Program-made: the position numbers and the translations under genes | Origin: Rubrivivax sp. | GTDB taxonomy: Bacteria > Pseudomonadota > Gammaproteobacteria > Burkholderiales > Burkholderiaceae_C | DNA: 54,178 bases | NCBI GenBank assembly: GCA_021297985.1 | Contig: JAJTGU010000146.1 | Location: 1 to 54,178 of the forward strand | Direction: 5' to 3' | Part shown: positions 142 through 18,050 of the stretch, in pieces | How the letters are laid out: each line of letters opens with the position of its first letter | How positions within the stretch are numbered: the stretch's first letter is position 1 | The notes under the pieces: generated by a model | The model's input: only the letters and a program-made list of their open reading frames with translations | What the model was told of the DNA's origin: nothing | Database searches by the model: none

Positions 142-1266
142 TCACAGCGCTTCTCCTTCGATCCAGACCTGGCGCAGGTCAAGCGCCGCGTCCAGCACCA
201 CGACATCGGCCCAGGCGCCTACTCGCAGGACACCGCGGTCGGCCAGGCCCAGGTGCTGTGCCGCCAGCGTCGAGGTGCGCCGCGACGCCTCGGCCAGCGA
301 CAGGCCCAGCGTCTGCACCAGGTTGCGCAGCGCCTGGTCCATGGTCAGGGTGCTGCCGGCGAGCGTGCCGTCGGCCAGGCGCACGCCGCCCAGGCACTTG
401 GTGACGGTGTGGCGGCCGAGCCGGTAGTCCCCGTCGGGCATGCCGGCCGCGGCCGTGCTGTCGGTGACGCAGTACAGACCGGGGATGCAGCGCAGCGCCG
501 CGCGGATGGCACCGGGGTGGACGTGAAGCAGGTCGGGGATGATCTCGGCCCGCTCGGCATGGGCCAGTGCGGCACCGGCCATGCCCGGCTCGCGGTGGTG
601 AAGGCCGGTCATGGCGTTGAACAGATGCGTGAAGCCGGTGGCGCCGGCTGCCAGCGCCGCGACGCCGTCTTCGTAGCGCCCGGCCGAATGACCGATCTGG
701 ACCACGAACCCGGCCACGCGCAGGGCGACGATCAGCTCCAGATGGCCGGGCATCTCGGGCGCGATGGTGATCAGCCTCAGCGGTGCAAGGGCGTGCAGCG
801 CCTGCACTTCGGCCAATGTGGCGGCGCTGGCGAAGTCGGGCTGCGCACCCAACCGGCCCGGATTGATGTACGGCCCTTCCAGGTGCACGCCCAGCACGCG
901 AGCCTGTGCGCTGCCGCGGCCGTCCGGCCGGCAATGCGGTGCGATGGCGGCCAGCGCGGATTCGATCTCGGCACGGGGCGCCGTCATCGTCGTCGCGAGC
1001 AGGGATGTCGTGCCGTGGCGGGCATGGGTGGCCGCGATGCGGGCCAGCGCGTCGCCGCCCTCCATGCTGTCGCGGCCGCCGCCGCCGTGCACATGCAGAT
1101 CGACGAAGCCGGGGATCAGGATGGCGGCTCCGCCCTGGCCAGGCGACACGCCGGGCGGCAGGGCCTGGCCTTCGGTGCGCGCGATGCGTCCGTCGGCGCC
1201 GATGCTCAAGGCACCGTCGCGCCAGGTGCCGTCGTCGCCGAGCCAGTGGCCGTGCAGGGGAGTCAT
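142..1266 (-). CDS. nagA: N-acetylglucosamine-6-phosphate deacetylase
   Basis: MTPLHGHWLGDDGTW...LIPGFVDLHVHGGGGRDSMEGG...GVHLEGPYINPGRLGAQ...GHSAGRYEDGVAALAAGATGFTHLFNAM: amidohydrolase/NagA motifs. ATG at 1266 chosen over the longer ORF start. Confidence 0.93.
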   Translation of the reverse strand: MTPLHGHWLGDDGTWRDGALSIGADGRIARTEGQALPPGVSPGQGGAAILIPGFVDLHVHGGGGRDSMEGGDALARIAATHARHGTTSLLATTMTAPRAEIESALAAIAPHCRPDGRGSAQARVLGVHLEGPYINPGRLGAQPDFASAATLAEVQALHALAPLRLITIAPEMPGHLELIVALRVAGFVVQIGHSAGRYEDGVAALAAGATGFTHLFNAMTGLHHREPGMAGAALAHAERAEIIPDLLHVHPGAIRAALRCIPGLYCVTDSTAAAGMPDGDYRLGRHTVTKCLGGVRLADGTLAGSTLTMDQALRNLVQTLGLSLAEASRRTSTLAAQHLGLADRGVLRVGAWADVVVLDAALDLRQVWIEGEAL

Positions 1267-1291: not shown

Positions 1292-2404
1292 TCAAGCCGC
1301 AGGCACCGGACGCTCGGCCGACAGGCGCCGGCCCGCCGCCGAGGCCGCATCTTCGAACACCTGGGTTTCGTCGGCCCGCGGTGCGCAGCGCAGCAGGCTG
1401 CCGGCGCTGGCGGCGACGTGGCGAGGCACCAGCAGACTTGCCGCAGTGCCGGCGGTGGCGTCGGCCTGGCCGGACAGGTCGCCATGCAGCACCGTGCTGG
1501 CGCCCAGTCGTTCGACCACCCGCACGCGCAGCGCCAGCGGGCCGTCCGAGGCGAGCTCCAGGTGCTCGGGTCGCAGCCCCAGCGTGCAGGGCTGGCCGTT
1601 TGCGCTGTGGGTCATCGCGGGAACGTCGACGGCGGCATTGCCGAAGCGCACATGGGTCGCATCGACGACGGTCGCCGGCAGCAGGTTCATCGCCGGGCTG
1701 CCGATGAAACCGGCGACAAAGCGGTTGGCTGGATTGGTGTACAGCGCCAGCGGGCTGCCGACCTGCTCGACGACGCCGTCGCGCAGCACGACGATGCGCT
1801 CGGCCAGCGTCATCGCCTCGACCTGGTCGTGGGTGACGTAGACCATGGTCCGGCCGAGTTGCTGGTGCAGTGCCGCGATCTCGACCCGCAGGTGCAGGCG
1901 CAGTTCGGCGTCCAGGTTCGACAGCGGCTCGTCGAACAGGAAGACCTGCGGCTCCTGCACCAGCGCCCGCCCGATCGCGACCCGCTGGCATTGGCCGCCG
2001 GAGAGTTCGCCCGGCCGACGCTCGAGGTAGGGCTCGAGCTTGAGCAGCGCGACGGCGCTCTGCAGCTTGGCCGCGATGGTGGGCTTGGGCACGCCGCGCA
2101 TCGCCATGCCAAAGCTCAGGTTCTGCCGCACGGTCATGTGGGGGTAGAGGGCATAGCTCTGGAACACCATGGCGACACCGCGTTGGCTGGCCGGCAGCGC
2201 GGTGACGTCACGCCCCCCGATGCGGATGCGGCCTTCGCTGGCGCCTTCGAGCCCGGCGATCAGGCGCAGCAGCGTGCTCTTGCCGCAGCCCGACGGGCCG
2301 ACAAAGACGACGAACTCGCCGTCGGCCACGTCCAGGTCGATGCCACGCAGCGTGTGCGTGTTGCCAAAGCGCTTGTGCAGGGCCTGGAGTTCGATGGCGG
2401 ACAT
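1292..2404 (-). CDS. Carbohydrate ABC transporter ATP-binding protein (UgpC/MsmK/MalK family)
   Basis: MSAIELQALHKRFGNTHTLRGIDLDV; Walker A GPSGCGKST; signature LSGGQCQR; Walker B VFLFDEPLSNLDAELR; C-terminal TOBE-like region. Confidence 0.93.
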   Translation of the reverse strand: MSAIELQALHKRFGNTHTLRGIDLDVADGEFVVFVGPSGCGKSTLLRLIAGLEGASEGRIRIGGRDVTALPASQRGVAMVFQSYALYPHMTVRQNLSFGMAMRGVPKPTIAAKLQSAVALLKLEPYLERRPGELSGGQCQRVAIGRALVQEPQVFLFDEPLSNLDAELRLHLRVEIAALHQQLGRTMVYVTHDQVEAMTLAERIVVLRDGVVEQVGSPLALYTNPANRFVAGFIGSPAMNLLPATVVDATHVRFGNAAVDVPAMTHSANGQPCTLGLRPEHLELASDGPLALRVRVVERLGASTVLHGDLSGQADATAGTAASLLVPRHVAASAGSLLRCAPRADETQVFEDAASAAGRRLSAERPVPAA

Positions 2405-2423: not shown

Positions 2424-4034
2424 TCAGTGCGTCGCCGGACGGCGGGCCAACAGCGCGGCGGGCCAGGCGCGCGGGATGCCGGCGGCGTCGATCCGGGTCT
2501 GCACGGCGCGGAGATGGTCGCGGTCCTGGACGATGGCGGCCGGCGCATGACCGCTGGCCAGGCTCTCTGCGGCCAGGAGGCCGGCGACCTCGCCGACCGC
2601 CCATTCGACCGGGTGGACCCGGGTGCAGGCGTTGGCGAGGTGGCTGACGCCGATGTTCTTGCAGCCAGGCAGCAGGTTGTCGACGTCGCGTGGCACCCAG
2701 CAGCCCAGCGGCAGCACGAAGGGCTCGACGGGCGCGTTGAGGCCGTGGCCACTGATGCAGGTGGGGTGGATGTCGAGGTTGTACCAGCCGGTGGCTGCAG
2801 CGTCGGCCCGGGCCCGGCCGGGCTCGGCCGGGCGCTGCAGGTCGTTCTGCGTCAGCGTCGTCATCGCAACGATGCGGCGCGACTCGCGCACATAGACCTG
2901 CTGCGCCAGGCCGTCGCGCGTGCCCAACAGGTCGCCGGCCGGCTGCCAGTTCGGAAAACCCGCGCCGCCGTCGGGGCGTGGTGCTTCGGTCTGCAACCAG
3001 TGCAGCAGGCACATCGACAGCTCGGCCGCGGCGCGCTCGACCTCGGCCTGCGGGCGCGGGCCGTCGAGCAGCGGGTGCAGCGCGAAGTCGTTCTGCGCCC
3101 AGTTGACGAGCGTGGCATCGGCCCGCGCGTGGGGCCCGCCTGCCGGCCACTGTGCCGCGCTGACGATGCGGCGGTAACGCCACCAGTCGAGCGTGGTGCC
3201 CGCGGCGACCAGCGGCAGATGGGCCGAGACGCCGCGCCCGCGCCCCGGCATGAACGCGCTGAACTGGGCATGGCCGTGGTGCGGCAGCCGATGCGCGCGC
3301 CACCTCGTGTAGCCCGGCGGCGGCTCGTCGAAGGTCGCGGTGCCACCGATCCCCTGGCGCAGTGCGAGCACGTGCGTGACGGGCTGCTGGTCCAGCGCAT
3401 CGGCCTCGTCGGGTGCGTCGGGCTCGCCGAACTGTGCGCGCGACTCCTTGCCGATGCGGCAGGGCAGATGGGCCAGGCGCAGCAGATCACCGGTGTCGGT
3501 GGCATCGATGACGGACTGCACGTCCAGCCAGGACACGCGGCCGTCGGCCTCGCGCAGCATCAGCGCGGCAATGCGCCGGCCCTCGCGCCGCACGGCAACG
3601 GCGCGGGCGAATCGCAGGATCCGCAGTCGGCCCTGCGCCACCAGCGGCGCGAGCAGGCGTTCGAACCACCGGGCCGCCAGCGACGGCTCGAAGCACAGCC
3701 GGCTGACCCAGCCGTCGCCCGGGTTGCTGAGCCCGGGCGTCATGGTGCTGAGGTCGACGAAGCCCGGCAGCGTGCGGTAGGCAGTGCGGATGTCGGCGCG
3801 GAACTGGCGGTAGCTGGCGCTGGCGCTGCCGGCGTGTTCGATCAGCGGGTGCTCGTCGGGAGGCACACCCTGGGCCGTCATCTGGCCGCCGATCCAGGCC
3901 TGTTCGGCGACCAGCCACACCGGCGCCGAAACCGCGTCCTCGGCACGCGGCAGCGCCTGAGCCGCCCGCCAGGCCGCGAGCACGCCGCCCAGGCTGGCAC
4001 CGAGCACGACAAGCGGGACCTTGGCCTGTGTCAT
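2424..4034 (-). CDS. FAD-dependent oxidoreductase (PF12831-like)
   Basis: MTQAKVPLVVLGASLGGVLAAWRAA, AEQAWIGGQMTAQGVPPDEH, SVIDATDTGDLLRLA, GWYNLDIHPTCISGHG, NLLPGCKNIGVSHLANACTRVHPVEWAVGEVAG: pattern of FAD_oxidored proteins. Confidence 0.85.
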   Translation of the reverse strand: MTQAKVPLVVLGASLGGVLAAWRAAQALPRAEDAVSAPVWLVAEQAWIGGQMTAQGVPPDEHPLIEHAGSASASYRQFRADIRTAYRTLPGFVDLSTMTPGLSNPGDGWVSRLCFEPSLAARWFERLLAPLVAQGRLRILRFARAVAVRREGRRIAALMLREADGRVSWLDVQSVIDATDTGDLLRLAHLPCRIGKESRAQFGEPDAPDEADALDQQPVTHVLALRQGIGGTATFDEPPPGYTRWRAHRLPHHGHAQFSAFMPGRGRGVSAHLPLVAAGTTLDWWRYRRIVSAAQWPAGGPHARADATLVNWAQNDFALHPLLDGPRPQAEVERAAAELSMCLLHWLQTEAPRPDGGAGFPNWQPAGDLLGTRDGLAQQVYVRESRRIVAMTTLTQNDLQRPAEPGRARADAAATGWYNLDIHPTCISGHGLNAPVEPFVLPLGCWVPRDVDNLLPGCKNIGVSHLANACTRVHPVEWAVGEVAGLLAAESLASGHAPAAIVQDRDHLRAVQTRIDAAGIPRAWPAALLARRPATH

Positions 4035-5536
4035 GGCCGCAGCGGGGCGAGGTGGAGGTCGATCTCGAAACTGCGCTGCCACGGCAGATCGAGCCCGGTG
4101 ACCTGGTGGCCGAGGCCACGCGCACGGGCCCAGGCGTTCAGTGCCGGCAGCACGACGTGGCGGGCCATCGCCAGCAGTTCGGTCTTGTCGGCCCGCGACT
4201 CGTCGAGGGCGCCGCGCAGCACCCCGCGCCATTGCGCCTGGTAAAGGCCGTCTTCGAGCAGTCGCAGCGCAAGCGCCTCGCGGGCCGCCTCGGAGTCCCA
4301 GGCATCACGCGCAAGCTGCGCCGTCGCCAGCGCGCTGCCCAGGCGGTTGCTGGCGGTGTTCCAGCCGGCATAGGCAGCCAGCCGCTTGGGCATCAGGGCC
4401 GGATGGGCCAGCAGCCAGGGGTCACCCCCGTTGGCATAGGCGGCGTCGACCAGGACCACCGGACGTCGTGCGTCCTGCCAGCGGCGCATCCGGTCGAACC
4501 ACGCGTCCGGCACCGGCACCCGCTGGGGCAGCGGGCGGCCCATGGCCCAGTCGCCCTGGGCCGACCCTTGGGTGTGCAGCGCCACGAGGACTTCGGCCTG
4601 ATCGTCGTCATCCACCCACTCGGCGCCGACGGCCTCGGCCTGCGCCGCCAGGGCCTGGCGCAGCGGGCGGTCTTCGTACAACGCCGTCAGGTCGTCCAGG
4701 TGGTCGGGGTCGCTCGGGGCCAGGGCCAGCTTCAGCGGGCCACGTTGTTCGAGCGTTTGCACGGCACGGGCGACCAGGGTGTGCAGCACCTCGTCGGCGC
4801 CGGCGTAGATCGGCACCTTGCGGGCCAGACCCCAGGCCGCGACCAGGTCTTGCCAGGCGCGGCGCTCGGCGATGTTGAAGCCGTACTCGGCGGTGTCGTC
4901 CTGCGGCAGGACCAGCCGCTCCAGCGTGCCGTCGCGCACCCGTTCCAGCGCAGCCCGGGTGACGGCCAGGTTGCGCGCCCGCGTGGCGCGGTAGTCGTCG
5001 CGGATCGAGGCCGGGACGCGCTGCTCGGCCGCGGCGGCGGCCGCGTGGCTGGCGGCGTCGCCGGTCTGCCCGGCACGGTCGTGGTGGAACGACCAGGACC
5101 AGAGCGCGCGCCCGTGCTGGGCCCAGTAGGGTTTCTCCTCGTCGGCGACGTCGTTGTTCGAGATCCGCATCGTCGACGCAAACGCCCAGATCGGCTTGCC
5201 TGGCCAACGCGCCTTGAGCCGGTCGACCAGCGCCAGCCGGGCCAGCAGCGTCGGCAAGGCGTCGGGCACGAAGCGCGAAGGCACCAGGCCGCCGTAGATC
5301 AGCATGTCCAGCGACAGCACGAAGCCGTCGGCCGCCTCGCCTTCGGCCAGCAGCCAGGCGGCCAGTGCCTCGGTGTCGGCTGGTGTGCGGAAGTGGCCCA
5401 GCGCCGCGGGTTCGGGCAGACGCAAGTCCCAGCCCGCGCAGCGCGCCAACGCCTGGACCTGCCGATGCACGACCGGGCGACCATCGACGGGCAGGCCGAG
5501 CAGGATGCGGTGCAGCGTCGGGCGGGGCAGGGTCAT
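4031..5536 (-). CDS. DUF4127 family protein
   Basis: MTLPRPTLHRILLGLPVDGRPV...LSLDMLIYGGLVPSRF...STMRISNNDVADEEKPYWAQHGRALW...LPQDDTAEYGFNIAERR...GADEVLHTLVARAV. Overlaps the next gene by 4 nt (ATGA). Confidence 0.82.
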   Translation of the reverse strand: MTLPRPTLHRILLGLPVDGRPVVHRQVQALARCAGWDLRLPEPAALGHFRTPADTEALAAWLLAEGEAADGFVLSLDMLIYGGLVPSRFVPDALPTLLARLALVDRLKARWPGKPIWAFASTMRISNNDVADEEKPYWAQHGRALWSWSFHHDRAGQTGDAASHAAAAAAEQRVPASIRDDYRATRARNLAVTRAALERVRDGTLERLVLPQDDTAEYGFNIAERRAWQDLVAAWGLARKVPIYAGADEVLHTLVARAVQTLEQRGPLKLALAPSDPDHLDDLTALYEDRPLRQALAAQAEAVGAEWVDDDDQAEVLVALHTQGSAQGDWAMGRPLPQRVPVPDAWFDRMRRWQDARRPVVLVDAAYANGGDPWLLAHPALMPKRLAAYAGWNTASNRLGSALATAQLARDAWDSEAAREALALRLLEDGLYQAQWRGVLRGALDESRADKTELLAMARHVVLPALNAWARARGLGHQVTGLDLPWQRSFEIDLHLAPLRP

Positions 5537-5546
5537 CGCTCAGGTC

Positions 5547-8153
5547 TCAACGCCGTTCGCGCAGCGTCAGCACGCGGTCCGGGAACAGCTTGCCCGGGTT
5601 GGCGGCATGGACCGGATCCGGCCGGCCATCGGCGAACACCGGCTCCCAGTGCGCGGCGGCCAGTGCGATGTCGTGGCCGGGGGGGATCGGGGTCCACAAG
5701 CGCAGTTCGAGCCGGCCGTCGGGCAGGCGGCGCAGGCTGCTGGTCAACGCGGCCGGCGTTCCGACATCCGGACCCGCGGCGGTGGCCCATCCGTGGCCGC
5801 GCAGCACCTGCGGTGGCCGGCGAAAGGCCTGGGCGGCGGGCATCGCAAACGACGCGGGCTGGAACTCCTCTCGCGCCAGCAGGCGGAATTCGAACTCGTC
5901 GCGTCCCAGGCACTGCGCCCCCGGTGTCGCGATGTCCGGCCCGGCACCCACGCCCCGCGTGCGCAGGTCGCGCCGAGACAGCCAGCCGACGCTGCGGACC
6001 AGCGTCACGGCCAGGGCCAATGAGTCCGGCGCGGCGCCGCGCACGACTTCATGCTCGTGCATCGCGCGGTGCACCAGGCGCCAGGGCCCGGCGGCGATCA
6101 TCGACAGGCTGGGCAGCACGGCCACCGGCATCTCGCGCCTCGACGGCGTGTCGGGGATCTGCGCCAGGCGCACCGGCCGCTCGACGACGGCAAAGGCACT
6201 GTCGCTCGCCGTCGTGGCGGTGTCGGCGCGCAGCCCAGGGAAGACCAGCCGCGTGCGCTGGTCGCGCGCCCGGTTGTGCCAGATCAGGTTCACATGCAGC
6301 GCCCCGTCGCCGTCGAACAGCCTCAGGCACAGCTCGCCTTCGCAGCGCACGCGCTCGGTGGCTGCACCCTGCCGGTCCGCCGCCAGCCCGGCCGGCAGAT
6401 CCATCGCGATGCGGCAGCGCAGTTCCTGCGCCAGAGCGTCACCTCGCACCTGCGGTGTGTTCCAGTTCGCCTCGCGCGTTTCCAGGGCCTCGCGCGGTGG
6501 CGAGAAGTTGTAGCTGTCGCCAGCGTCAAGCTCGCTCAGGATCTCGAAGACGCCGGCGTACTCGAGCCCGCTGATCCGGTTCTTCAGCGTCAACGGACCG
6601 CCTTGCCAGGGCATGCTGACGATCCAGTGGCCATTGGCGATGGAGGCCGGGCCAGGGGCTGTGGGTTGCGGCGCCGCGACTTCGACGGTGCGCTGAGCCA
6701 TGTCGACACGCAGCGGCACCCCGCCCAAGGCCGGCAACGCGCAGCGCACGGCGACGTCGAGACGATGACCCGTGATGCGCTCTGGAAAGTCGTCCAGCGG
6801 CGAGACCAGCTCGGCATCCGGCTCGGCGGCCAGCAGCACCGCCGGCAGCTCGCGGTGGCCGTCGGCAACCACCCGGACGGCCGTCGGCGCCACGTCGCCC
6901 CGCACGAACAGCGACAGTGTCCACCAGCCGTCCCGCCGCTGCGGCAGCGGGTTGAAGAGCGTGAAGCGCCGGTCGTCGGCAAACACGTCCAGCCCGGGCG
7001 GCGCGCTGTGGCGGTGGCGGGTGCGCAGGCCGGCGGCCACCAGCAGGTCGGCCCGCATGGCGTCCAGCCGCTGCGACAGCTGGACGAAGCGCTGCGCCAT
7101 CTCGTCGTGCACGGCATCGGTCGAGCAGCCGCAGATCGAGTCGTGTGCCTGCTGCTCGACCAGCGTGCGCCAGGCCGACTGCAAGGCGAGCCGGGCCGCT
7201 TCGGGCACTCGTTCGCCAAGCACCGCGGCCAGCGGCTCGATCTCGCCGAGCAGGCGGTCCTCGAGCGCCTGATGCTGGCGCTTCAGGTGGCGCCGGGTCG
7301 ACAGCACGTCCGGCAGCACAAAGGCCTGGGCGTTGGCGCGCAGTTCGCCGCTGATGACCTGACGCGGGCCGGGCCGCGCCAGGACGTGGCGGACGTGGGC
7401 CTCCAGCGTGTTGAAGGCCAGCGAGTACGGCGACGGCGCGGTGGTGTAGCGGGCCATGCGCTCGGCCAGTTCAGGGTCCGGTGCCAAGTGGTCACCACCG
7501 TGTGGCAGCAGCAGCGCACCGCCCACGCCGGGTGCGCGACGCGACGCGATCAACGCCAGCAGATCGTCGACCGCCTGCGGCCAGCCAGGTCCATGGAACG
7601 GGATCTGGTAGTAGCCCTGGCTCAGGAACACGGTGCCGACGACGCTGCGGTCCGGGCCGCGCCAGTCGAAGCGGTCGTGTTCGGCATCGGCGCCGCGCCA
7701 GACCACGGCCTGGGCGATGCCGAACTGGGCCAGGATCTGCGGCATCTGCGCGACATGGCCGAAGTTGTCCGGCAGGTAGCCCAGCTTCTGCGGCAAGCCG
7801 AAGGCGCTGGCATCGGCCAGGCCGAACTCGAGGTTGCGCAGCAGCGATTCGCCCTGGACCAGGAATTCGTCCATCGCCACGAACCAGGGCCCGAGCACCA
7901 GGCGGCCGGCCGCGGCATGGTGGCGGATGCGCTCGGCCATCGCCGCTGGCGCGACGGCCAGCAGGTCGCGCAGGGCCACGGTCTGGCCATCGAACAGGAA
8001 CGAGGGCAGGGCGCCGGTGTCGAGCTGCGCCAGCACCTGCTGCATGGCCACGACCAGGCGCGCCAGCGTGGTTTCGCGGTCCAGGTACCACTCGCGGTCC
8101 CAGTGCGTGTGCACCACCACATCGACGGTCTGGCGGCGGTCGTGGTCGTTCAT
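5547..8153 (-). CDS. Glycoside hydrolase family 38 alpha-mannosidase (MngB-like, cytoplasmic)
   Basis: VDVVVHTHWDREWYLDRETT, LGPWFVAMDEFLVQGESLLRNLEFG, LGYLPDNFGHVAQMPQILAQFGI, HDSICGCSTDAVHDEM: GH38 motifs. The 1118-aa track ORF extends the frame artificially upstream; real start ATG 8153 (or GTG 8159). Confidence 0.92.
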   Translation of the reverse strand: MNDHDRRQTVDVVVHTHWDREWYLDRETTLARLVVAMQQVLAQLDTGALPSFLFDGQTVALRDLLAVAPAAMAERIRHHAAAGRLVLGPWFVAMDEFLVQGESLLRNLEFGLADASAFGLPQKLGYLPDNFGHVAQMPQILAQFGIAQAVVWRGADAEHDRFDWRGPDRSVVGTVFLSQGYYQIPFHGPGWPQAVDDLLALIASRRAPGVGGALLLPHGGDHLAPDPELAERMARYTTAPSPYSLAFNTLEAHVRHVLARPGPRQVISGELRANAQAFVLPDVLSTRRHLKRQHQALEDRLLGEIEPLAAVLGERVPEAARLALQSAWRTLVEQQAHDSICGCSTDAVHDEMAQRFVQLSQRLDAMRADLLVAAGLRTRHRHSAPPGLDVFADDRRFTLFNPLPQRRDGWWTLSLFVRGDVAPTAVRVVADGHRELPAVLLAAEPDAELVSPLDDFPERITGHRLDVAVRCALPALGGVPLRVDMAQRTVEVAAPQPTAPGPASIANGHWIVSMPWQGGPLTLKNRISGLEYAGVFEILSELDAGDSYNFSPPREALETREANWNTPQVRGDALAQELRCRIAMDLPAGLAADRQGAATERVRCEGELCLRLFDGDGALHVNLIWHNRARDQRTRLVFPGLRADTATTASDSAFAVVERPVRLAQIPDTPSRREMPVAVLPSLSMIAAGPWRLVHRAMHEHEVVRGAAPDSLALAVTLVRSVGWLSRRDLRTRGVGAGPDIATPGAQCLGRDEFEFRLLAREEFQPASFAMPAAQAFRRPPQVLRGHGWATAAGPDVGTPAALTSSLRRLPDGRLELRLWTPIPPGHDIALAAAHWEPVFADGRPDPVHAANPGKLFPDRVLTLRERR

Positions 8154-8155
8154 GT

Positions 8156-9001
8156 TCACCCTTTCACCGCCCCTTTCATCGCGCCCTCGATGAAGAAGCG
8201 CTGGCTGAAGACGAAGACCGCGAGGATGGGCAGCAGCGAGAACACGGCACCCGCGGCAACCAGCCGCCAGTCCATCGAGAACGTGCTTGCCAGGCGGTTG
8301 ACGCCCAATGGCAATGTGAACCGTGCCGGATCGTCGGTGAGCACCAGCGGCCAGAGAAAGTCGCCCCAGACCGCGACGAAGCTGAACACCGCGAGCGTCG
8401 CCAGCGACGGCTTGACCAGCGGCAGCAGGACATGCCACCAGATCTTCAGCCGGGGTACGCCTTCGATCAGGGCCACTTCCTCCAGTGCCTTGGGCACGCC
8501 AAGAAAGGCCTGGCGCATGAAGAAGATGCCAAACGCGGTGCAGGCATGCGGCAGGACCAGGCCGAGCGTGGAGTTGGTCAGACCGAGCGCGACGGCGAGT
8601 TCGTAGACCGGGATCATCAACAGCTGGAACGGCACCATCATCGTCGCCAGCAGCACGCCGAAGATGGCACCGCGGCCGCGGAACTCCATGCGCGCCAGCG
8701 GGTAGGCCGCCAGCGACGCGAGCGTCACGTTGAGCACGACCGCGATGGCCGCGACCATGGCGCTGTTGCCCAGGTACTGCCAGAACGGCTGGCTGGCAAA
8801 GACCTGGGCATAGTTGGCCAGCGTGGGCTCGGCCGGCAACCACTGCGGTGGCTGGGCATAGATGTTCTCGCCGGGCGACTTCAGCGACGTCGACAACAGC
8901 CACAGGAACGGCCCGACCGTCAGGGTCACCACCGCCACCAGTGCGGCGTAGCGCAACAGCACCGCGGGCCAGTCGTGGCGGAGGACGCGGCGAAGGTTCA
9001 T
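8156..9001 (-). CDS. Carbohydrate ABC transporter permease (MalG-like)
   Basis: MNLRRVLRHDWPAVLLRYAAL... multiple TM segments; EAA-type loop EEVALIEGVPRLKIWWHVLLPLVKPSLATLAVFSFV. Confidence 0.93.
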   Translation of the reverse strand: MNLRRVLRHDWPAVLLRYAALVAVVTLTVGPFLWLLSTSLKSPGENIYAQPPQWLPAEPTLANYAQVFASQPFWQYLGNSAMVAAIAVVLNVTLASLAAYPLARMEFRGRGAIFGVLLATMMVPFQLLMIPVYELAVALGLTNSTLGLVLPHACTAFGIFFMRQAFLGVPKALEEVALIEGVPRLKIWWHVLLPLVKPSLATLAVFSFVAVWGDFLWPLVLTDDPARFTLPLGVNRLASTFSMDWRLVAAGAVFSLLPILAVFVFSQRFFIEGAMKGAVKG

Positions 9002-9032: not shown

Positions 9033-9920
9033 TCAACGCAGCGGGCTCTTCAAGAGCCGCAGGTTGACCAGCGACAGCACCAGCGTGATCGCGAACAGCA
9101 CCACGCCGGCGGCGGCCGCCAGCCCCATCTCGAACTCGACGAACGCGGCTTCGTAGAGATAGAAGACCAGCGTCTTGGTGGCGTCCAGCGGGCCGCCCTG
9201 CGTCATCACGTAGACCTCCTCGAAGACCTTCATCGCGCCGATCGACGACATGACCGCCACCACCGCCATCTGCGGCTTGAGCAGCGGCACGGTGATGTGC
9301 AGCCATTGCCGCCAGCGCGGCACGCCTTCGACATCGGCGACCTCGTACAGATGGCGCGGGATGGCCTGCAGGCCGGCGAGGTAGATGACCATGTAGTAGC
9401 CCAGCCCGCTCCAGACCGTGACCGCCATCACCGCAAACAGGGCGTTGCCCGGATCGGTCAGGAAGGCCACGGGCGAGTCGGTCAGCCCGCTCGCCAGAAG
9501 CAGGTGGTTGAGCAGGCCTTTTTCCTCGTAGACCCACTTCCAGACCAGGCTCGAGACCACCAGCGACGTGATCACCGGCAGGTAGATCGCAGCGCGGAAG
9601 AAGGCCATGCCCGGCAGTGCCTTGTCGACCAGCATCGCCAGGCCCAGTGGCAGCGTCACCAGCAGCGGCACCACCACCGCCAGGTACAGCAGCGTGTTCT
9701 TCAATGCACCCCAGAAGAAGGGGTCTGCCCACAAGGCGAGGTAGTTGTCCAGACCCGCGGCCTGGGCGGGCTGGATCATGTTGAAGTGGGTGAAGCTCAG
9801 CGCCAGCGCCTTCAATGCCGGGTACACCACCACGAGCGCGATCAGTGCACATCCCGGGACCAGGAACAGCACCGGCACCCAGGGCGGTTGCTGGCGCCAG
9901 CGCACAGCGACCGTCTTCAT
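9033..9920 (-). CDS. Carbohydrate ABC transporter permease (MalF-like)
   Basis: MKTVAVRWRQQPPWVPVLFLVPGCALIALVVVYPALKALALSF...; EAA loop YEVADVEGVPRWRQWLHITVPLLKP. Confidence 0.93.
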   Translation of the reverse strand: MKTVAVRWRQQPPWVPVLFLVPGCALIALVVVYPALKALALSFTHFNMIQPAQAAGLDNYLALWADPFFWGALKNTLLYLAVVVPLLVTLPLGLAMLVDKALPGMAFFRAAIYLPVITSLVVSSLVWKWVYEEKGLLNHLLLASGLTDSPVAFLTDPGNALFAVMAVTVWSGLGYYMVIYLAGLQAIPRHLYEVADVEGVPRWRQWLHITVPLLKPQMAVVAVMSSIGAMKVFEEVYVMTQGGPLDATKTLVFYLYEAAFVEFEMGLAAAAGVVLFAITLVLSLVNLRLLKSPLR

Positions 9921-11194
9921 GCCCGGCCCCGGCGGTCGCATCCCAGCAAGGCTTGCCAGGTGGCGGCCACCTCGGCGACCGCCCGGGCGGGCGTCTGCCG
10001 GCCGAGCATCGCCGACTGCAGCCCGCGCAGGTGCGCGATCCGCAGCTTGCTGTAGCGGCGCATCGGAGGCACCGCGACATGCCCGCTGCGCACCTGGGCG
10101 ACCGAGAGGGCCCGCGCGCGGGCGATCAGGGCGTCGCTGCCGGGGGCGGTGAACACGGCATCGTCCAGGCTTGCAGCGCTGGACGGCAGCAGCGGCACGC
10201 GCTTGACGAGCGCCAGCTGGTTGTCCGCGTTGGTGATGTGCGCGGCCAGGCGAAAGGCGCCTTCGGGATCCGGGCTCGCAGCGGGGACCGCCAGGTTCAT
10301 CGCCGCGATGTTGGCCCGCGGGTCGCCGTGGACGCTGGTCCACTGCGGTTGGACCTCGATCTGTGCGTACAGCGCCGGATTCGCCTTGGCGATGTGGGTC
10401 AGGAACTGCATCCCGGTGTTCAGCATCGCGACCTGCCCGGCCGCGAACTGCGCCACGGCCGCGCGGTGGCCCTCGGTCAATGCCGACGGTGGGATCAGGC
10501 GCTCGGCCAGCAGCTGCCGGTACCAGTCGAACACGGCCTCGCCGCGGGCGCCGGCGAACGCCGCAGCACAGCCGTCGTCGCGGAGCAGAGGTCCTGCCAT
10601 CGCCACCATGGCTTCCAGCGGCGCGGACCCGTCCAGCGGGGCAAACCAGGCGTAGCTTCCGGTGCTGTCGCGCAGCGCGCGTGCGGCGGGGATCACGTCT
10701 GCGTAGTCCTGCGGCACGCGCGCCAGACCGGCCCGGGACAGGACGCCGCGGTGGGCCAGCGTCAGCGTCGTGCTCAGGTACCAGGGCAGACCAAACGGCA
10801 CACCGGCAAAGCGGTTGGCGGCCCAGGCCGGCTCGAGGTAGCTGCGCTGTTCGACGGTCGAGATGAACGGCCTTGGATCGCGCAGCGCACCCAGTTCGGC
10901 CAGCCGGGCCGCGAACTGCGGGTTCAGGTTGACGACGTCGGGTGCCGTACCGGCGGCCACCGACGCGAGCACCTTGCGCTCCATCTCGGCCCAGGGCACG
11001 TCGACCCAGCGCACGCGCCAGCGAGGGTGGCGGGCTTCGAAGTCGCGCAGCAGGCCGAGCACGAATTCGTCGTGGAACGGCGACAGCTGCATCGTCCACA
11101 GGACCAGTTCGCGGCGCGGCAAAGCAGGCGCCGACAGCGCCAGCGCCGCCAGCGGGGCGGCTGACGCACGGAGCAGGGTGCGCCGGCGAAGCAT
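9917..11194 (-). CDS. Extracellular sugar-binding protein of ABC transporter (family 1 solute-binding protein)
   Basis: MLRRRTLLRASAAPLAALALSAPALPRRELVLWTMQLSPFHDEFVLGLLRDFEARHPRWRVRWVDVPWAEMERKVLASVAAGTAPDVVNL: export signal plus SBP pattern; ATGA overlap with the permease. Confidence 0.92.
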   Translation of the reverse strand: MLRRRTLLRASAAPLAALALSAPALPRRELVLWTMQLSPFHDEFVLGLLRDFEARHPRWRVRWVDVPWAEMERKVLASVAAGTAPDVVNLNPQFAARLAELGALRDPRPFISTVEQRSYLEPAWAANRFAGVPFGLPWYLSTTLTLAHRGVLSRAGLARVPQDYADVIPAARALRDSTGSYAWFAPLDGSAPLEAMVAMAGPLLRDDGCAAAFAGARGEAVFDWYRQLLAERLIPPSALTEGHRAAVAQFAAGQVAMLNTGMQFLTHIAKANPALYAQIEVQPQWTSVHGDPRANIAAMNLAVPAASPDPEGAFRLAAHITNADNQLALVKRVPLLPSSAASLDDAVFTAPGSDALIARARALSVAQVRSGHVAVPPMRRYSKLRIAHLRGLQSAMLGRQTPARAVAEVAATWQALLGCDRRGRA

Positions 11195-11290: not shown

Positions 11291-12043
11291 GTGAACCCGT
11301 CCCCCGCCCCCATGGACCGCGCCGGCAAGCGCGATCTGCTTCAACGCAACCTGCTGGCCCTGGTGCAGCAGGCTGGCGAGGGCGTTCGCCTGCCACCGGA
11401 GCGCGAACTCGCCACGCAGATGGGCGTCGCCCGGCAGACCTTGCGTCGCGCGCTGGAAGGGCTGGAGAGCGAGGGCCTGCTCGCACGGCGCCAGGGCGCC
11501 GGCACCTTCGTCAACCCGCAGGGGTGGGTCAAGCCGCTGGTGTTGAGGTCGTTTTCGGAGGACATGCGCAGCCGCGGTCTGGTGCCGAGCAGTACCCTGC
11601 TGGGCACCGCAACGCAGCGTGCCGATGCGAAGGTGGCGCTGAAGCTGAAGCTGGCGCCGGGTACGCCCGTGTTCGAGATCCGCCGGCTGCGCCTGGCCAG
11701 CGGCGAGCCGATGGCGATCGAGTGGGCCTGCCTGCCGCAGCACCGCTTGCCTGGTTTCGACCCCAAGGTGCTGGCCACGCAGTCGCTGTACGACGTGCTG
11801 GAGCGCGAGTACGGCATCCAGATCCGCAACGCGGCGCAGGACATCGGCGCCACGGTCGTCACCGAGGAAGAGGCGCAATTGCTGGACGTCGCGCCGTTTT
11901 CGCCCGCACTGCTGGTCGAACGTCAGGTCCTGGCGCTGGACGGCGAGCCCATCGAGTACGGCAAGACGCTGTACCGCGCCGACCGCTACCGCTTCGCCGT
12001 CAACGTCGGCCGTGCCGCGCCGGACGAAGCCGGAAACCGCTGA
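11291..12043 (+). CDS. GntR family (HutC/FarR-type) transcriptional regulator
   Basis: RDLLQRNLLALVQQAGEGVRLPPERELATQMGVARQTLRRALEGLESEGLLARRQGAGTFV (wHTH) plus UTRA effector domain. Start is GTG 11291 or ATG 11312. Confidence 0.92.
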   Translation: MNPSPAPMDRAGKRDLLQRNLLALVQQAGEGVRLPPERELATQMGVARQTLRRALEGLESEGLLARRQGAGTFVNPQGWVKPLVLRSFSEDMRSRGLVPSSTLLGTATQRADAKVALKLKLAPGTPVFEIRRLRLASGEPMAIEWACLPQHRLPGFDPKVLATQSLYDVLEREYGIQIRNAAQDIGATVVTEEEAQLLDVAPFSPALLVERQVLALDGEPIEYGKTLYRADRYRFAVNVGRAAPDEAGNR

Positions 12044-12776
12044 CCCCCTGGGCCTGCGCATGGTGGCGAGCGCGATCCCCTGGCCCGAGTTGCAGCGACG
12101 CCTTCGCGGGGGGCTCGTGGTCTCGGTGCAGCCGGTCGACGGCGGTCCGCTGGACGACGACGGTGTCGTGGTCCGCATGGCCCAGGCGGCAGTCGCCGGT
12201 GGGGCATCGGCCTTGCGTGTCGAAGGCGCGCAGCGTCTGGCCCGGGTCCGGCGCGCCGTGACGGTGCCGCTGATCGGCATCGTCAAGCGCGACCTCGGCG
12301 GCTCGCCGGTCCGCATCACGCCGTTCGCGGCTGATGTGGCGGCGCTGGCCGAGGCCGGCGCCGACATCGTGGCGATGGACGTGACCGCCAGGCCGCGGCC
12401 CGAGCCGGTCGCGGCGCTGCTGGCTGCGGCCATCGCGAGCGGTTGCACGGCGATGGCCGATGCCAGCAATGAAGCCGACGCACGGGCCGCGGCGGGGATG
12501 GGCTTCGCGATCGTGGGCAGCACGTTGTCGGGCTACACCTCGGCCGCTGACCCGGCGGTGCCGGGTGCGCCGGATCTTGACCTCGTGCGGCGGCTGGCCG
12601 ACCTGGGCCTGTGCGTGATGGCCGAAGGGCGTTACGACACGCCGGAGCGCGCCGCGGCGGCCATTGCCGCAGGCGCCTGGGCGGTGACGGTGGGGTCGGC
12701 GCTCACGCGGCTTGAAGTGGCCACCGGCTGGTTTGCCGATGCGGTTGCGGGTGCACGCCAGCCGTTGTCGGCTTGA
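12012..12776 (+). CDS. nanE: Putative N-acetylmannosamine-6-phosphate 2-epimerase
   Basis: GLVVSVQPVDGGPLDD...ALRVEGAQRLARVRRAVTVPLIGIVKRDLGGSPVRITPF...GADIVAMDVTARPRP...GFAIVGSTLSGYT...VMAEGRYDTPERAAAAIAAGAWAVTVGSALTR: NanE motifs. Confidence 0.92.
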   Translation: MPRRTKPETADPLGLRMVASAIPWPELQRRLRGGLVVSVQPVDGGPLDDDGVVVRMAQAAVAGGASALRVEGAQRLARVRRAVTVPLIGIVKRDLGGSPVRITPFAADVAALAEAGADIVAMDVTARPRPEPVAALLAAAIASGCTAMADASNEADARAAAGMGFAIVGSTLSGYTSAADPAVPGAPDLDLVRRLADLGLCVMAEGRYDTPERAAAAIAAGAWAVTVGSALTRLEVATGWFADAVAGARQPLSA

Positions 12777-12869
12777 GCCCCCCAGCCGTCCGGCTGCGGG
12801 AAAACGATAGGTGTCTGTCAGATTGGCACGGCGGACAGCGGTCATTCGCTGCCATAAACTGTGCCAAAA

Positions 12870-12879
12870 GGTATACGTT
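12870..12879 (+). promoter_or_regulatory. Candidate GntR/HutC operator (GGTATACGTT) upstream of the TonB receptor
   Basis: Near-palindrome AAAAGGTATACGTTTT about 30 bp upstream of the receptor ATG; shares GGTATACRTT with 11235-11244. Confidence 0.5.
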
Positions 12880-12909
12880 TTGACCCATGCTTTCAGGAGA
12901 CAGCAGACC

Positions 12910-15855
12910 ATGAGCTCTCGCGTCCACACGCCATCCGTCTTGTCGCCCGTAGCCGGAGCCTGCGCCGTGCTGCTGTTCGGGCTGGTGTCATCCGCCCAGG
13001 CGCAGACCACGGCCCAGCAGGCCGGCCGAGCCGCCGCCGATGCCGCCCCGGTCCAGACCATCGAGATCTCGGGCATCCGCGCCTCGATCCAGGCCAGCAT
13101 CACCGCCAAGCGAAACGCTGCGACCAACGTCGAGGTCCTCACCGCCGAGGACGTGGGCAAGATGCCGGACAAGAACATCGCCGACTCGCTGTCGCGCCTC
13201 CCCGGCGTGAACGTGCAGTTCGGCGGCGCATTGGCGATGGACGAGGCCGAGCGCGTGGCCATCCGCGGCACGAGCCCGAACCTGAACCTCGTCACGCTCA
13301 ATGGCCATGCACTGGCCTCCGGCGACTGGCACGTCGGCGACCAAGGCTCGTCGGGCCGCAGCGTCGGCTTCGGCCTGATGCCCAGCCAGCTGATCGGCCG
13401 CGCGGTGGTCTACAAGACCGGTCAGGCCGACATCACCGAAGGCGGCATTGCCGGCACGGTCGACATCCAGACGCGCAAGCCGCTGGACTTCCGCAAGAGG
13501 CTCACGGGCGAGATCGCCATCGGCGCCGTCTATGCCGACTTGCCCAAGACGACCGACCCCCAGTTGTCGGGGCTGGTGGGGTTCAAGAACGACGCCGGAA
13601 CCTTTGGCGTGCTGGTTCAGGCCTTCAGCGAGAAGCGCCACCTGCGCCGCGACGGCCAGGAGACCTTCGGCTTCAACGTCATCAGCGCGGCGACCGCGCT
13701 CACCGCCTCGGGCGGCGGCACCGCGGCCAACCCGGTGAACCGTGAGCTGCGCGACCAGCTCGTCAACAAGCGCCTGCCGGGCAGCCTGAACTCGGCGCTG
13801 TTCGAAGGCGTGCGCGAGCGCACCGGCGGCTACATCGGCGTGCAGTTCAAGCCCACGCGCGACCTCGACCTGAACTTCAGCGCGTTCCGCGTCACGCTTG
13901 ACGCCGACAACTACAACAGCTCGGGCTTCGCATTGCCCAACGCGCTGATCACCAACGGCTGGATCGTCAGCAACGCCCAGTTCCAGGGCGACGTGATGAC
14001 CGCGGCCACGTTCTCGCGGCCCGCGAATGCGAGCCCGAACCAGCGTGTGATCGGCTTCCAGTTCGACAACAACGTGCGCCAGGGTGCGCAGTCGCTGTCG
14101 TCGTTCTACGACTTCGACTTCAAGTGGAACCTCGGCGACAAGCTCGTGTTCGATGGCCGCATCGGCTACACCGAGGGCAACGGCGTCACCAACTCGCAGC
14201 CCAGCCTGACGTTCGGGATCGTGAACCCGAACATGTCCTACAACATCAACACCACGCGGCCCACCGACTACCGGCTCACCGACTCCGTCACCGGCCAGCC
14301 GATCGCGATGGGTCAGCTGTCGAGCTACAACCAGATGAGCAACACCGGCGCCAAGCTGGTGTCCAAGGACGACGAAAGCTACGTCCACCTGAACGGTACC
14401 TGGAAGATCGACGGCGAGCTGTTCTCCAAGCTGAAGTTCGGCGTGCGCACCGCCAAGCACAACCGCACGCTGGACAACACCAGCCCACGCTGGAACGCCC
14501 AGGACGGAGCAAACGGCCTGCCAGTGAGTCCGTCGCCTTTCCTGTCGGTCACGGGTGGCCTGCTCGTCAACTTCCAGAATCTGCCGGTCTACCCGGGCAC
14601 GACGCCACCGACGATCCAGCCCATCGTGCCCAACGGACAGGTGCCGGTGCCGGCGACCCGCTACCCGTCCAACTGGGGCAGCGGCATCGACGCCACGTTC
14701 CCGCGCGACCTGTTCCGCTTCGACGCGTCCCAGATCCAGGCCTTCGCCAACCAGTACGTCAACTGGGACCCGGTCCGCAACAAGACCTGGGGCAGCTCGT
14801 ACATCGTCGACGAGACCAACAACGCCGGCTACATGATGCTGGAGTTCGACAAGGACGCGTTCAGCGGCAACGTCGGCCTGCGCGTCGCACAGACCAAGGT
14901 CACGTCGACCTCGTACCAGAACCTCAATGCGGCCGGTCCGAATGGTGCGCCGGTGGTGTGCCCGAACCTGCTGCAGCCTTGCGCCGCAGCGCCGAACGCC
15001 ATCACCACTTCGGTGATCGGGGTCTTCCTGCCGCAGGTCGTCGAGACCACGCACACCGCGCTGCTGCCGAGCCTGAACCTGCGCTACGAGCTGGCCCGAG
15101 GCGTGATCGCCCGCGGCAGCATCAGCCGAACCCTCGGCCGGCCGAACTACAACGAGCTGGCCGCGGCGATCTCGGTGAACAACACGCTGCTGACCGGCAG
15201 CGGCGGGAACCCGCTGCTCAAGCCGATCCTGTCGACCAATGTCGACGCCTCGGTGGCCTGGTACTTCGCGCCGCGTGCGTACTTCCAGGTCAGCGCCTTC
15301 GCCCAGGACATCGAGAACTACGTCAAGGCCGGCACTTCGCAGGTGCCGCTGTTCAACACCTCGACGAATACGACCTCGATCTACACGATCACGTCGCGCA
15401 TCGGCGTCGACGCCACGCTCAGCGGCATGGAGGCGGCGCTCGAGCTGCCACTGGGCAGCGGCTTCGGCATCAACACCAACCTGACGCTGGTCGAGGGAAG
15501 GGACCAGGATGGCGCGGACCTGCTGGGTACGTCGCGCGTGACCTACAACGTGCAGGGCTGGTTCGAGAGCGAGCGCTTCGGTGCGCGCCTGGCCTGGACG
15601 CGACGCAGCGACTATGCGATCGGCTTCGTCGGCAACGGCACCAACACGCCGGGCAACGGCGTGCACAAGTACAAGGGCAACGGCAGCCTGTCGGCGTCGC
15701 TCCAGTACCGCATCACCAAGAACATCAGCGTCACGCTGGACGGCAACAACCTGCTCAATCCGGTGCGCAGCACCTACTTCATCACCGACAACGCACCAGG
15801 CTACTGGCACGAGAGCGGGCGCCAGTTCTTCCTGAACCTGCGTGCCAAGTTCTGA
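12910..15855 (+). CDS. TonB-dependent receptor (TIGR01782/Caulobacter-type)
   Basis: Signal peptide MSSRVHTPSVLSPVAGACAVLLFGLVSSAQA; plug domain IRASIQASITAKRNAATNVEVLTAEDVGKMPDKNIADSLSRLPGVNVQ; C-terminal ...GRQFFLNLRAKF ending in Phe. Confidence 0.95.
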   Translation: MSSRVHTPSVLSPVAGACAVLLFGLVSSAQAQTTAQQAGRAAADAAPVQTIEISGIRASIQASITAKRNAATNVEVLTAEDVGKMPDKNIADSLSRLPGVNVQFGGALAMDEAERVAIRGTSPNLNLVTLNGHALASGDWHVGDQGSSGRSVGFGLMPSQLIGRAVVYKTGQADITEGGIAGTVDIQTRKPLDFRKRLTGEIAIGAVYADLPKTTDPQLSGLVGFKNDAGTFGVLVQAFSEKRHLRRDGQETFGFNVISAATALTASGGGTAANPVNRELRDQLVNKRLPGSLNSALFEGVRERTGGYIGVQFKPTRDLDLNFSAFRVTLDADNYNSSGFALPNALITNGWIVSNAQFQGDVMTAATFSRPANASPNQRVIGFQFDNNVRQGAQSLSSFYDFDFKWNLGDKLVFDGRIGYTEGNGVTNSQPSLTFGIVNPNMSYNINTTRPTDYRLTDSVTGQPIAMGQLSSYNQMSNTGAKLVSKDDESYVHLNGTWKIDGELFSKLKFGVRTAKHNRTLDNTSPRWNAQDGANGLPVSPSPFLSVTGGLLVNFQNLPVYPGTTPPTIQPIVPNGQVPVPATRYPSNWGSGIDATFPRDLFRFDASQIQAFANQYVNWDPVRNKTWGSSYIVDETNNAGYMMLEFDKDAFSGNVGLRVAQTKVTSTSYQNLNAAGPNGAPVVCPNLLQPCAAAPNAITTSVIGVFLPQVVETTHTALLPSLNLRYELARGVIARGSISRTLGRPNYNELAAAISVNNTLLTGSGGNPLLKPILSTNVDASVAWYFAPRAYFQVSAFAQDIENYVKAGTSQVPLFNTSTNTTSIYTITSRIGVDATLSGMEAALELPLGSGFGINTNLTLVEGRDQDGADLLGTSRVTYNVQGWFESERFGARLAWTRRSDYAIGFVGNGTNTPGNGVHKYKGNGSLSASLQYRITKNISVTLDGNNLLNPVRSTYFITDNAPGYWHESGRQFFLNLRAKF

Positions 15856-17098
15856 CCCCGGGCCCCGACGCGACCTCCGTGGCCGCCGCGACCTGCTGCA
15901 GGCAGGGGCGGCGGCCTTTGCCTTGGGTGCGTGGCCATCAGACCCCTTGCGGGCTCAGCCCGCGACCGCCGCGACCGCGTTGGCCGAAGTCCGCGCCACC
16001 TGGCTGACGACCACCGCCAACCGTGCGCTGGCGACTCCGGCCGATACCGAGGCGACGATGGCCGCGCTGGCCGACATCGGGCTCAACACGGTGTACGTCG
16101 AGTGCTGGAAGAACGGCTACACGCAGTACCCCAGCGACGTGCTGGCGCGCACGATCGGCCATCGCCAGCGGCCTGGCAGCGCCTTGCAAGACCCTTCGGA
16201 CAAGGCCGGAGCGCCCGCCCGCGACCTGCTTGGAGAGACCCTGGCTGCGGCGCGCCGGCACGGCCTGCACCACGTGGCCTGGTTCGAATACGGATTCATG
16301 GCTGCGCATGGCGCGACGCACAACCACCTGCGGCGCCTGAAGCCGCACTGGCTGTCGCGCGACATCCGCGGCGGCGAGGTCGCGCCCAACGGCTTCGTCT
16401 GGATGAACCCGCTGCACCCCGAGGCGCGGGCATTCCTGCTCGATCTGACGCTCGAGGCGATCGGCCGCTACGGCTTCGATGGCGTGCAGTTCGACGACCG
16501 CATCGTCTGGCCCTATGTGACCATGGGCTACGACGATCACACGCGAAGCGTCTACGCCGCCGAACACGGTGGCCGCCAGCCGCCGGAGAACGCTCGCGAT
16601 CCGGCCTGGATGCGCTGGCGTGCCGACAAGCTCAACGCGCTGGCGGCGGAGTTCTGCGCCGCGCTGCGCGCTGCCCGACCGGGGTTGATGGTGTCGCTCA
16701 GTCCGGCGGTCTACCCCTGGAGCTGGGAGCACTACCTGCTGGAATGGCCGCAGTGGGCACGCTGGCCCGAGACGCGGCGCTGGCACGAATTCGTGCCCCA
16801 GGCCTACCGCACGAGTTACGCGGCATTCGAATCGACCTGGCTCGAGCAGACCGAGGCCCTGCGCGCCACTGGGGCCTACCGGCCGCAGGAGCTGGTGGCC
16901 GGCATCCGGCTCGAAGGCGAAGGCCCCGAGTCGGACTGGGATCAGCTGCGTCGCTCGATCGAACTCGTGCGCCGCCTCGGCCAGGGTGGGCATTCGCTGT
17001 GGTTCAGCAAGGGCGTGCTCGGCACCCATGCTGCGGCGCTGAAGGCCTTCTATGGCGGCCGGGTCGCGTCGCCGCGCTTCCCGGCGACGCCGCGCTGA
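15842..17098 (+). CDS. Family 10 glycosylhydrolase (GHL10-like), exported
   Basis: RRDLRGRRDLLQAGAAAFALGAWP (Tat-like signal); EVRATWLTTTANRALATPADTEATMAALADIGLNTVYVECWKNGYTQYPSDVL; GFDGVQFDDRIVWPY. GTG start overlapping the receptor stop by 14 nt. Confidence 0.85.
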   Translation: MPSSDPGPRRDLRGRRDLLQAGAAAFALGAWPSDPLRAQPATAATALAEVRATWLTTTANRALATPADTEATMAALADIGLNTVYVECWKNGYTQYPSDVLARTIGHRQRPGSALQDPSDKAGAPARDLLGETLAAARRHGLHHVAWFEYGFMAAHGATHNHLRRLKPHWLSRDIRGGEVAPNGFVWMNPLHPEARAFLLDLTLEAIGRYGFDGVQFDDRIVWPYVTMGYDDHTRSVYAAEHGGRQPPENARDPAWMRWRADKLNALAAEFCAALRAARPGLMVSLSPAVYPWSWEHYLLEWPQWARWPETRRWHEFVPQAYRTSYAAFESTWLEQTEALRATGAYRPQELVAGIRLEGEGPESDWDQLRRSIELVRRLGQGGHSLWFSKGVLGTHAAALKAFYGGRVASPRFPATPR

Positions 17099-17117
17099 CA
17101 GGCGCCGGATCCCTTTC

Positions 17118-18050
17118 ATGCGCGCCAAGCACGGGGGCGTCGGCCTGGGCCTGGATGCCGGTGGCACGCAGACCCGCTGGGCGCTTGCCGACGCCGCCGG
17201 CCGCACGCTGGCCCGAGGCAGCGTGACGGGCTTCAGCGGCCAGCAGGCGCTGACGGCAGCCGGACGGCGTCAACTCGATGCGGTGTTCCGGGATCTCCGC
17301 GAGGCCCTGGTCGCGACCCATGCCTCGTCGCCCCTGGCGTTGTGCGCGGGCGTCAGCGGCTACGACCGCAGTGCCGGCGACACCATGCCCCGCCTGCTCG
17401 CGGCGGGTCTCGGCCTGCCACCGCAGGCGGTGCAGTGCTTCAACGATGTCGAACTCGCCTGTCGGCTCGAGTTCGCCACGGGTACCGGGGGCATGGTCTA
17501 CGCGGGCACCGGATCGATTGCCTGGGCCGTCGATGCCGACGGTGCAGCCCATCACGTCGGGGGCCGTGGCGGGCTGATCGGCGACGAAGGCAGTGGCTAC
17601 TGGATCGCCAAGCGCGCACTGGCCGAGCTGTGGCGGCGCGAGGACGACGCGCCTGGCAGCGCCGTCCTGTCCGTGCTCGGCGCTCAGGTGTTTGCGGCCG
17701 TCGGTGGGCCGCAGTGGGATCAGACCCGCCGGGCATTGGCCGCCAAGGACCGCGGCGAGCTGGGTCAGCTCGCGTTGGCCGTGGCCCATGCGGCCGAGGC
17801 CGGCGACGCCTTTGCGCTGTCTTTGCTGAACCAGGCGGGTGACGAGCTGGCGCGTCTGGCCCTGCTGCTGATACGCCGCCATGGCGCGAGACGCATCGCG
17901 CTGGCCGGCCGCGTGTTTGATCTGCATGGCGCCGTGCTGTCGCGTCTGGCCGCTGCGCTGCCGGCCGAAGCGAGTGTCTTCCGCAGCGCGCTGGACGTGG
18001 CGCCCGCAGCAGCCCGGGCCGCTGCCGCTTCAGTGCGTCTGCCGGTCTGA
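17118..18050 (+). CDS. BadF/BadG/BcrA/BcrD-type ATPase, probable N-acetyl-hexosamine kinase
   Basis: MRAKHGGVGLGLDAGGTQTRWALADAAGRTLARG...LCAGVSGYDRSAGD...GGMVYAGTGSIAWAVDADGAAHHVGGRGGLIGDEGSGYWIAKRAL. Confidence 0.88.
   Translation: MRAKHGGVGLGLDAGGTQTRWALADAAGRTLARGSVTGFSGQQALTAAGRRQLDAVFRDLREALVATHASSPLALCAGVSGYDRSAGDTMPRLLAAGLGLPPQAVQCFNDVELACRLEFATGTGGMVYAGTGSIAWAVDADGAAHHVGGRGGLIGDEGSGYWIAKRALAELWRREDDAPGSAVLSVLGAQVFAAVGGPQWDQTRRALAAKDRGELGQLALAVAHAAEAGDAFALSLLNQAGDELARLALLLIRRHGARRIALAGRVFDLHGAVLSRLAAALPAEASVFRSALDVAPAAARAAAASVRLPV

Follow-up and report, generated by a model that had tools for sequence, protein, structure and literature searches.

DUF4127 (PF13552) is a Pfam family without an assigned function, a member of which is encoded in Rubrivivax sp. 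within a sugar-uptake cluster together with NanE, the 2-epimerase acting on N-acetylmannosamine 6-phosphate (ManNAc-6-P). Based on this setting and on comparisons of related loci, DUF4127 is judged likely to have a role in the NanE-linked branch of N-acetylmannosamine (ManNAc) catabolism. It is tentatively proposed to be a cytosolic enzyme that would cleave an imported oligosaccharide, or the 6-phosphate thereof, freeing ManNAc or ManNAc-6-P. DUF4127-containing sugar-uptake clusters span three phyla, and most of these clusters include NanE.

The DUF4127 gene and its neighbours in Rubrivivax sp.

The window, i.e. the whole stretch of 54,178 nt analysed here (contig JAJTGU010000146.1), contains two divergently oriented gene sets (Table 1). 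The minus-strand set is arranged, in order of transcription, as the sugar-binding protein (SBP), two permeases, GH38, DUF4127, FAD_oxidored, the ABC ATPase and NagA, while the plus-strand set consists of the GntR/UTRA regulator, NanE, a TonB-dependent receptor, GHL10 and a BadF-type kinase. Assignment of the 501 aa product to DUF4127, as given in a preliminary description of this DNA, was borne out far beyond chance by a Pfam match of 375.8 bits (cut-off 27), which covers the protein over its full length (residues 15–494; profile positions 4–488 of 489). The window protein, the only DUF4127 copy in the Rubrivivax genome, matches all motifs of the family, with no known difference. An open-access literature search found no paper naming DUF4127 or PF13552; the same search does retrieve papers for DUF871, indicating that domain terms of this type are indexed.

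Table 1. Genes of the DUF4127 cluster in the window
Feature	Coordinates	Strand	Evidence
NagA, GlcNAc-6-P deacetylase	142..1266	-	TIGR00221 240 bits, cut-off 225.65
UgpC/MalK-type ABC ATPase	1292..2404	-	NF008653 above cut-off
FAD-dependent oxidoreductase FAD_oxidored (PF12831)	2424..4034	-	Pfam E 2.5e-72; ATGA overlap with DUF4127
DUF4127 (PF13552), 501 aa, candidate cytosolic sugar-releasing enzyme	4031..5536	-	Pfam E 3.8e-112; AF2 pLDDT 87.1, pTM 0.89
GH38 alpha-mannosidase-like enzyme	5547..8153	-	PF01074 E 1.5e-25
Sugar ABC permease, MalG/UgpE type	8156..9001	-	PF00528
Sugar ABC permease, MalF/UgpA type	9033..9920	-	PF00528
Extracellular sugar-binding protein (SBP)	9917..11194	-	PF01547 E 5.8e-26
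GntR/UTRA regulator, divergent	11312..12043	+	PF07702 E 3.6e-43
NanE, ManNAc-6-P 2-epimerase	12060..12776	+	PF04131 E 1e-66; NF002231 254 bits, cut-off 189
TonB-dependent receptor	12811..15855	+	PF00593, PF07715
GHL10 glycosyl hydrolase-like protein	15842..17098	+	PF02638 E 3e-53
BadF/BcrA-type kinase, GlcNAc/MurNAc kinase- and hexokinase-like	17052..18050	+	PF01869 E 2.9e-16

The reported 4 nt overlap between the DUF4127 and FAD_oxidored genes proved exact (ATGA at 4031–4034), and inspection of the N-terminus (MTLPRPTLHRILLGLPVDGRP) agreed with the absence of an evident signal peptide. Of the two flanking genes that had been named, GH38 does adjoin DUF4127, its gene stopping 10 nt upstream, whereas nagA is separated from it by the FAD_oxidored and ABC ATPase genes. 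The most telling neighbour is NanE, which the preliminary description had left out along with the TonB receptor, GHL10 and the GlcNAc-kinase-like gene; the start of NanE was taken as the first ATG within the ORF at 12012–12776. The amino-sugar context described earlier therefore stands in a more specific form, as NanE points to ManNAc-6-P. NanE, a transporter and a regulator, the combination that marks a ManNAc catabolic operon, were found in one cluster both in the window and in the conserved clusters described below.

Among the remaining products, the GH38 enzyme matches GH38 structures 2wyh and 3lvt (E about 1e-47), and its best NCBIfam match, the mannosylglycerate hydrolase NF007331, scores 342 bits, far under the cut-off of 1138. 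GHL10 has a weak PDB relative in Cwp19 (E 1.7e-6), while PDB matches of the BadF-type kinase include a hexokinase (2e2n), a MurNAc/GlcNAc kinase (8zo3) and NAGK (2ch5).

Conservation of the cluster and co-occurrence with NanE

Nine loci of a public genome collection, encoding proteins with 44–57% identity to the window protein, were compared together with others from whole genomes. A common block comprising NanE, GntR, SBP, a kinase, two permeases, GH38, DUF4127, FAD_oxidored and the ATPase was kept in all eight complete Burkholderiales and Microbulbifer loci read (L001–L005 and L007–L009) and in L027; two further loci (L006 and G665) were consistent with the block but are cut by contig ends. 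The kinase of the block is of the ROK type, with the ManNAc kinase 5nck as its best PDB match, and is of the BadF type in the window and L027. Accessory genes at these loci encode an aldose epimerase, a TonB receptor, GHL10, a fructokinase-like PfkB and a PF07221 enzyme, the best match of which is a D-mannose isomerase. Roseateles violae carries a second, diverged DUF4127 gene (L014/L028, G035:C8:652659-654098) approximately 17 kb from the first and near PF07221 and PfkB genes; its product shows QDD to QDN and AEYG to SDYG changes and is possibly an altered or inactive copy.

Beyond these bacteria, the evidence from Priestia, Enterococcus and Carnobacterium derives solely from plasmids. Most of the block was found again on a Priestia megaterium plasmid, in the order family 10 glycosylhydrolase (GHL10-like by tblastn), ABC importer, FAD_oxidored, GH38, ROK, acetylxylan esterase, DUF4127, fructokinase-like ROK, ManA, PTS, NanE and RpiR, the PTS and ManA being additions to the block. 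The Priestia DUF4127, GH38 and NanE proteins are each only ~30% identical to their window counterparts. On the Enterococcus (L019) and Carnobacterium (L016) plasmids, only RpiR, NanE, a Cof-type HAD protein, DUF4127 and PTS_EIIC are encoded, by mutually adjacent genes. In Deinococcus (L015), FAD_oxidored and DUF4127 lie inside an ABC cluster that also holds nagZ and a GH20-like gene. In Subdoligranulum (L020), DUF4127 is likewise encoded within an ABC cluster; the stretch at L020:8527-18122 holds the ABC importer, DUF4127, an Antibiotic_NAT aminoglycoside N-acetyltransferase-like gene, PfkB, DUF4434 and an ADP-ribosylglycohydrolase; this unusual combination suggests a different substrate. The Alkaliphilus DUF4127 gene (L018:11821-13476) has no sugar genes nearby, and its product, which has a hydrophobic, signal-like N-terminus, possibly represents an exported branch of the family.

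The association with sugar genes elsewhere, on which the earlier proposal of a sugar-active protein had been made to depend, is thus present in other genera and phyla, with the distant L018 and L020 loci lacking NanE. Because NanE was not found on the plasmid records of Deinococcus L015, Subdoligranulum L020 and Alkaliphilus L018, the last of which also lacks a sugar context, the range of functions in the family may be wider.

The overlap between the two genes is itself recurrent: an ATGA or GTGA overlap at the DUF4127 stop was found again in most orthologous loci, and the Deinococcus genes likewise overlap by 4 nt in reversed gene order, so that FAD_oxidored overlaps DUF4127 in two phyla. Such coupling in most proteobacterial loci, its reversal in Deinococcus and the presence of both genes on the Priestia plasmid would fit a two-step redox scheme, in which FAD_oxidored makes a keto-glycoside that DUF4127 then cleaves or rearranges. 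This scheme is considered unlikely, given that no FAD_oxidored was seen near the DUF4127, NanE and PTS genes in the Enterococcus and Carnobacterium stretches read, and that the window FAD_oxidored has no meaningful PDB relative, and none telling its substrate.

Co-occurrence was assessed among 251 genomes of the bacterial family to which the window belongs. DUF4127 is present in four of these, full-length NanE (counted at E < 1e-60) in five and GH38 in six, with both NanE and GH38 present in 4/4 DUF4127 genomes. If genomes are taken as independent, the hypergeometric chance of this is about 3e-8 for NanE and 9e-8 for GH38; however, the counts are few and, coming from a single cluster passed on by inheritance or transfer, do not represent independent events, so that these figures show only that the genes travel together. 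A relative that is ~70% complete (G164; L029 and L030) carries two full NanE genes beside NagA, and DUF4127 was not found in it.

NanE is usually read as a sign of sialic acid use. The clusters share with sialic acid catabolism (NanA-NanK-NanE-NagA) the branch from ManNAc to GlcN-6-P, but differ from it in carrying DUF4127, GH38 and FAD_oxidored. Furthermore, none of 11 DUF4127-carrying genomes encodes a NanA above the TIGR00683 cut-off (best 142 bits of 382), in a search that could miss other NanA subfamilies. In those genomes, NanE is therefore probably not fed from sialic acid, and a sialic acid catabolic cluster was rejected as an explanation; the pathway of DUF4127 is probably ManNAc catabolism without a sialic acid feed, upstream of NanE.

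Invariant residues, predicted fold and viral relatives of DUF4127

Alignment of 12 DUF4127 members, the other 11 being 22–56% identical to the window protein, revealed 26 invariant positions. These include eight acids (D18, D153, D214, D248, E249, E288, D289 and D429), which in sequence terms represent an acid-rich site, and five arginines (R20, R88, R124, R186 and R290), which may serve in holding phosphate. No His, Lys or Cys is invariant among the 12 members, the best His column reaching 6/12. Each of four stretches previously singled out as possibly catalytic was found to contain invariant residues (G82 and R88; R124; D214 and G219; G246-A247-D248-E249 and L254). Further invariant motifs, absent from the preliminary description, are P-x-D-x-R (D18, R20), EDR (288–290), WNT..N (392–397) and W486/F490.

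With respect to function, the option of a deacetylase acting on an amino sugar or oligosaccharide, which had been raised earlier, is disfavoured. While NanE and NagA imply N-acetyl sugars, the absence of an invariant His or Cys and of a metal-site motif, the lack of a match to any Pfam deacetylase family and the presence of NagA within the window operon render it highly improbable; the metal-dependent (NagA/NodB) type was rejected, as no His is invariant among the 12 members.

The AlphaFold model of DUF4127 is confident (Table 1). Invariant polar residues follow predicted strand ends at a frequency that 12 of 500 circular shifts equalled or exceeded, a pattern seen in α/β enzymes. The fold comparison suggested earlier was uninformative, as it returned no PDB match for this confident model. 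Foldseek searches of the PDB gave no match at E < 0.001 for the full model, the best being a weak one to a beta-glucosidase (E 2e-3, TM about 0.2), nor for residues 1–266 alone (TM ≤ 0.38 among the matches listed). A TIM barrel, an idea derived from the beta-glucosidase and xylose isomerase matches, was not supported, as the N-terminal half instead gave weak matches to a mixture of Rossmann, flavodoxin-like and α/β-hydrolase folds. PDB sequence searches with the single protein and with the 12-member profile yielded nothing meaningful. Across 12 diverse members, and at E up to 10, no convincing match to known glycosidase families in Pfam was obtained, matches besides DUF4127 being at chance level only (DUF5693 at 0.023 in one member).

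Since the Rossmann-like α/β matches include periplasmic sugar-binding proteins and response regulators, albeit at weak E-values, a non-enzymatic role as a sugar-binding, regulatory or scaffold protein was also weighed. It is regarded as very unlikely: the 26 invariant residues, mostly polar and near strand ends, are more typical of an active site, and the clusters already encode the regulators GntR or RpiR.

In the viral structure library BFVD, A0A346TNQ6 was found as the one clear relative (TM 0.78, 22% identity) and is most likely a phage DUF4127; its likeness supports the DUF4127 model and tells no function. The PHROG family phrog_20208, to which no function is assigned, matches 12/12 DUF4127 members. 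Two matches in a phage collection (among them L021:2908-3471) are short, partial and located on unannotated faecal scaffolds, and scans of viral contigs found no DUF4127 relative.

A possible role in ManNAc release

Overall, the gene context supports the earlier notion of a sugar-active protein in an amino-sugar operon, through conservation of the cluster and co-occurrence with NanE and GH38, while catalysis is inferred from it. Conversion of ManNAc to GlcN-6-P is already accounted for by the kinase, NanE and NagA, and DUF4127 therefore probably acts before ManNAc, releasing it. In Listeria, the lmo2795-nanE operon (RpiR, ROK, PTS, HAD, oxidoreductase and nanE) supports growth on ManNAc, with NanE being nearly essential (PMC10667646). 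It resembles the Enterococcus and Carnobacterium DUF4127 operons in its RpiR, HAD, PTS and NanE genes, and differs from them in carrying a ROK gene and an oxidoreductase and in that no DUF4127 has been described for it (PMC10667646), indicating that DUF4127 is probably not needed for use of free ManNAc.

Both arguments bear on a further reading, according to which DUF4127 acts on a sugar or its phosphate not by glycosidic cleavage but as an isomerase, as an epimerase or in another step feeding NanE. This would be in keeping with the adjacency of DUF4127 and NanE in minimal PTS operons that have no other glycosidase, with the invariant acids and arginines, which would suit a sugar-phosphate isomerase too, and with the weak fold matches, a few of which are xylose isomerases. 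Lys and His are common in sugar isomerases and epimerases, yet neither is invariant in DUF4127; the fold matches are not significant, the route from ManNAc is complete without an additional step, and Listeria grows on ManNAc with the operon described above. On balance, such a conversion appears rather unlikely.

For the proposed release of ManNAc, a precedent is provided by MupG of Staphylococcus aureus, a DUF871 protein that is a cytosolic 6-phospho-N-acetylmuramidase acting on a 6-phosphorylated disaccharide (PMC6262408). As in DUF4127 loci, a domain of unknown function is there encoded beside a PTS, an amino-sugar 6-phosphate enzyme and a sugar regulator (PMC6262408), and MupG may by analogy be a model for how DUF4127 might work. 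The two proteins are not related in sequence (no DUF871 match in any of the 12 members at E up to 10); the partner enzyme of MupG is MurQ, whereas DUF4127 loci have NanE, and the PTS beside MupG contrasts with ABC import at many DUF4127 loci.

In the proposed pathway, the TonB receptor and GHL10 would act first on the glycan, outside the cell, followed by import through the ABC importer or, in some Bacillota, a PTS. GH38 would take off alpha-mannose, after which DUF4127 would cut the ManNAc glycoside. Phosphate would be supplied by the ROK or BadF kinase, or by the PTS, and the substrate of DUF4127 may be phosphorylated; NanE would then yield GlcNAc-6-P and NagA GlcN-6-P. Release of mannose is also suggested by the mannose isomerase and fructokinase-like PfkB, or the ManA and fructokinase ScrK, encoded at several loci. 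Together with GH38, these mannose-handling genes suggest that the imported glycan gives mannose too, and our best guess is that this putative glycan contains mannose as well as ManNAc.

Glycosidase chemistry in DUF4127 is a possibility drawn from the pathway, and is not backed by structure, as the fold has no PDB relative. It is more doubtful, though conceivable, that DUF4127 founds a new glycoside-cleaving family with a fold absent from the PDB, specific for glycosides of ManNAc or its 6-phosphate and marking a widespread, sialic-acid-free route for ManNAc/mannose glycans.

NanE is encoded here without a bona fide NanA, beside an uncharacterised family with sugar-uptake clusters in three phyla. 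If DUF4127 does free ManNAc, it would represent a new family of carbohydrate-active enzymes and would hint at an overlooked bacterial nutrient, a glycan containing ManNAc and mannose.
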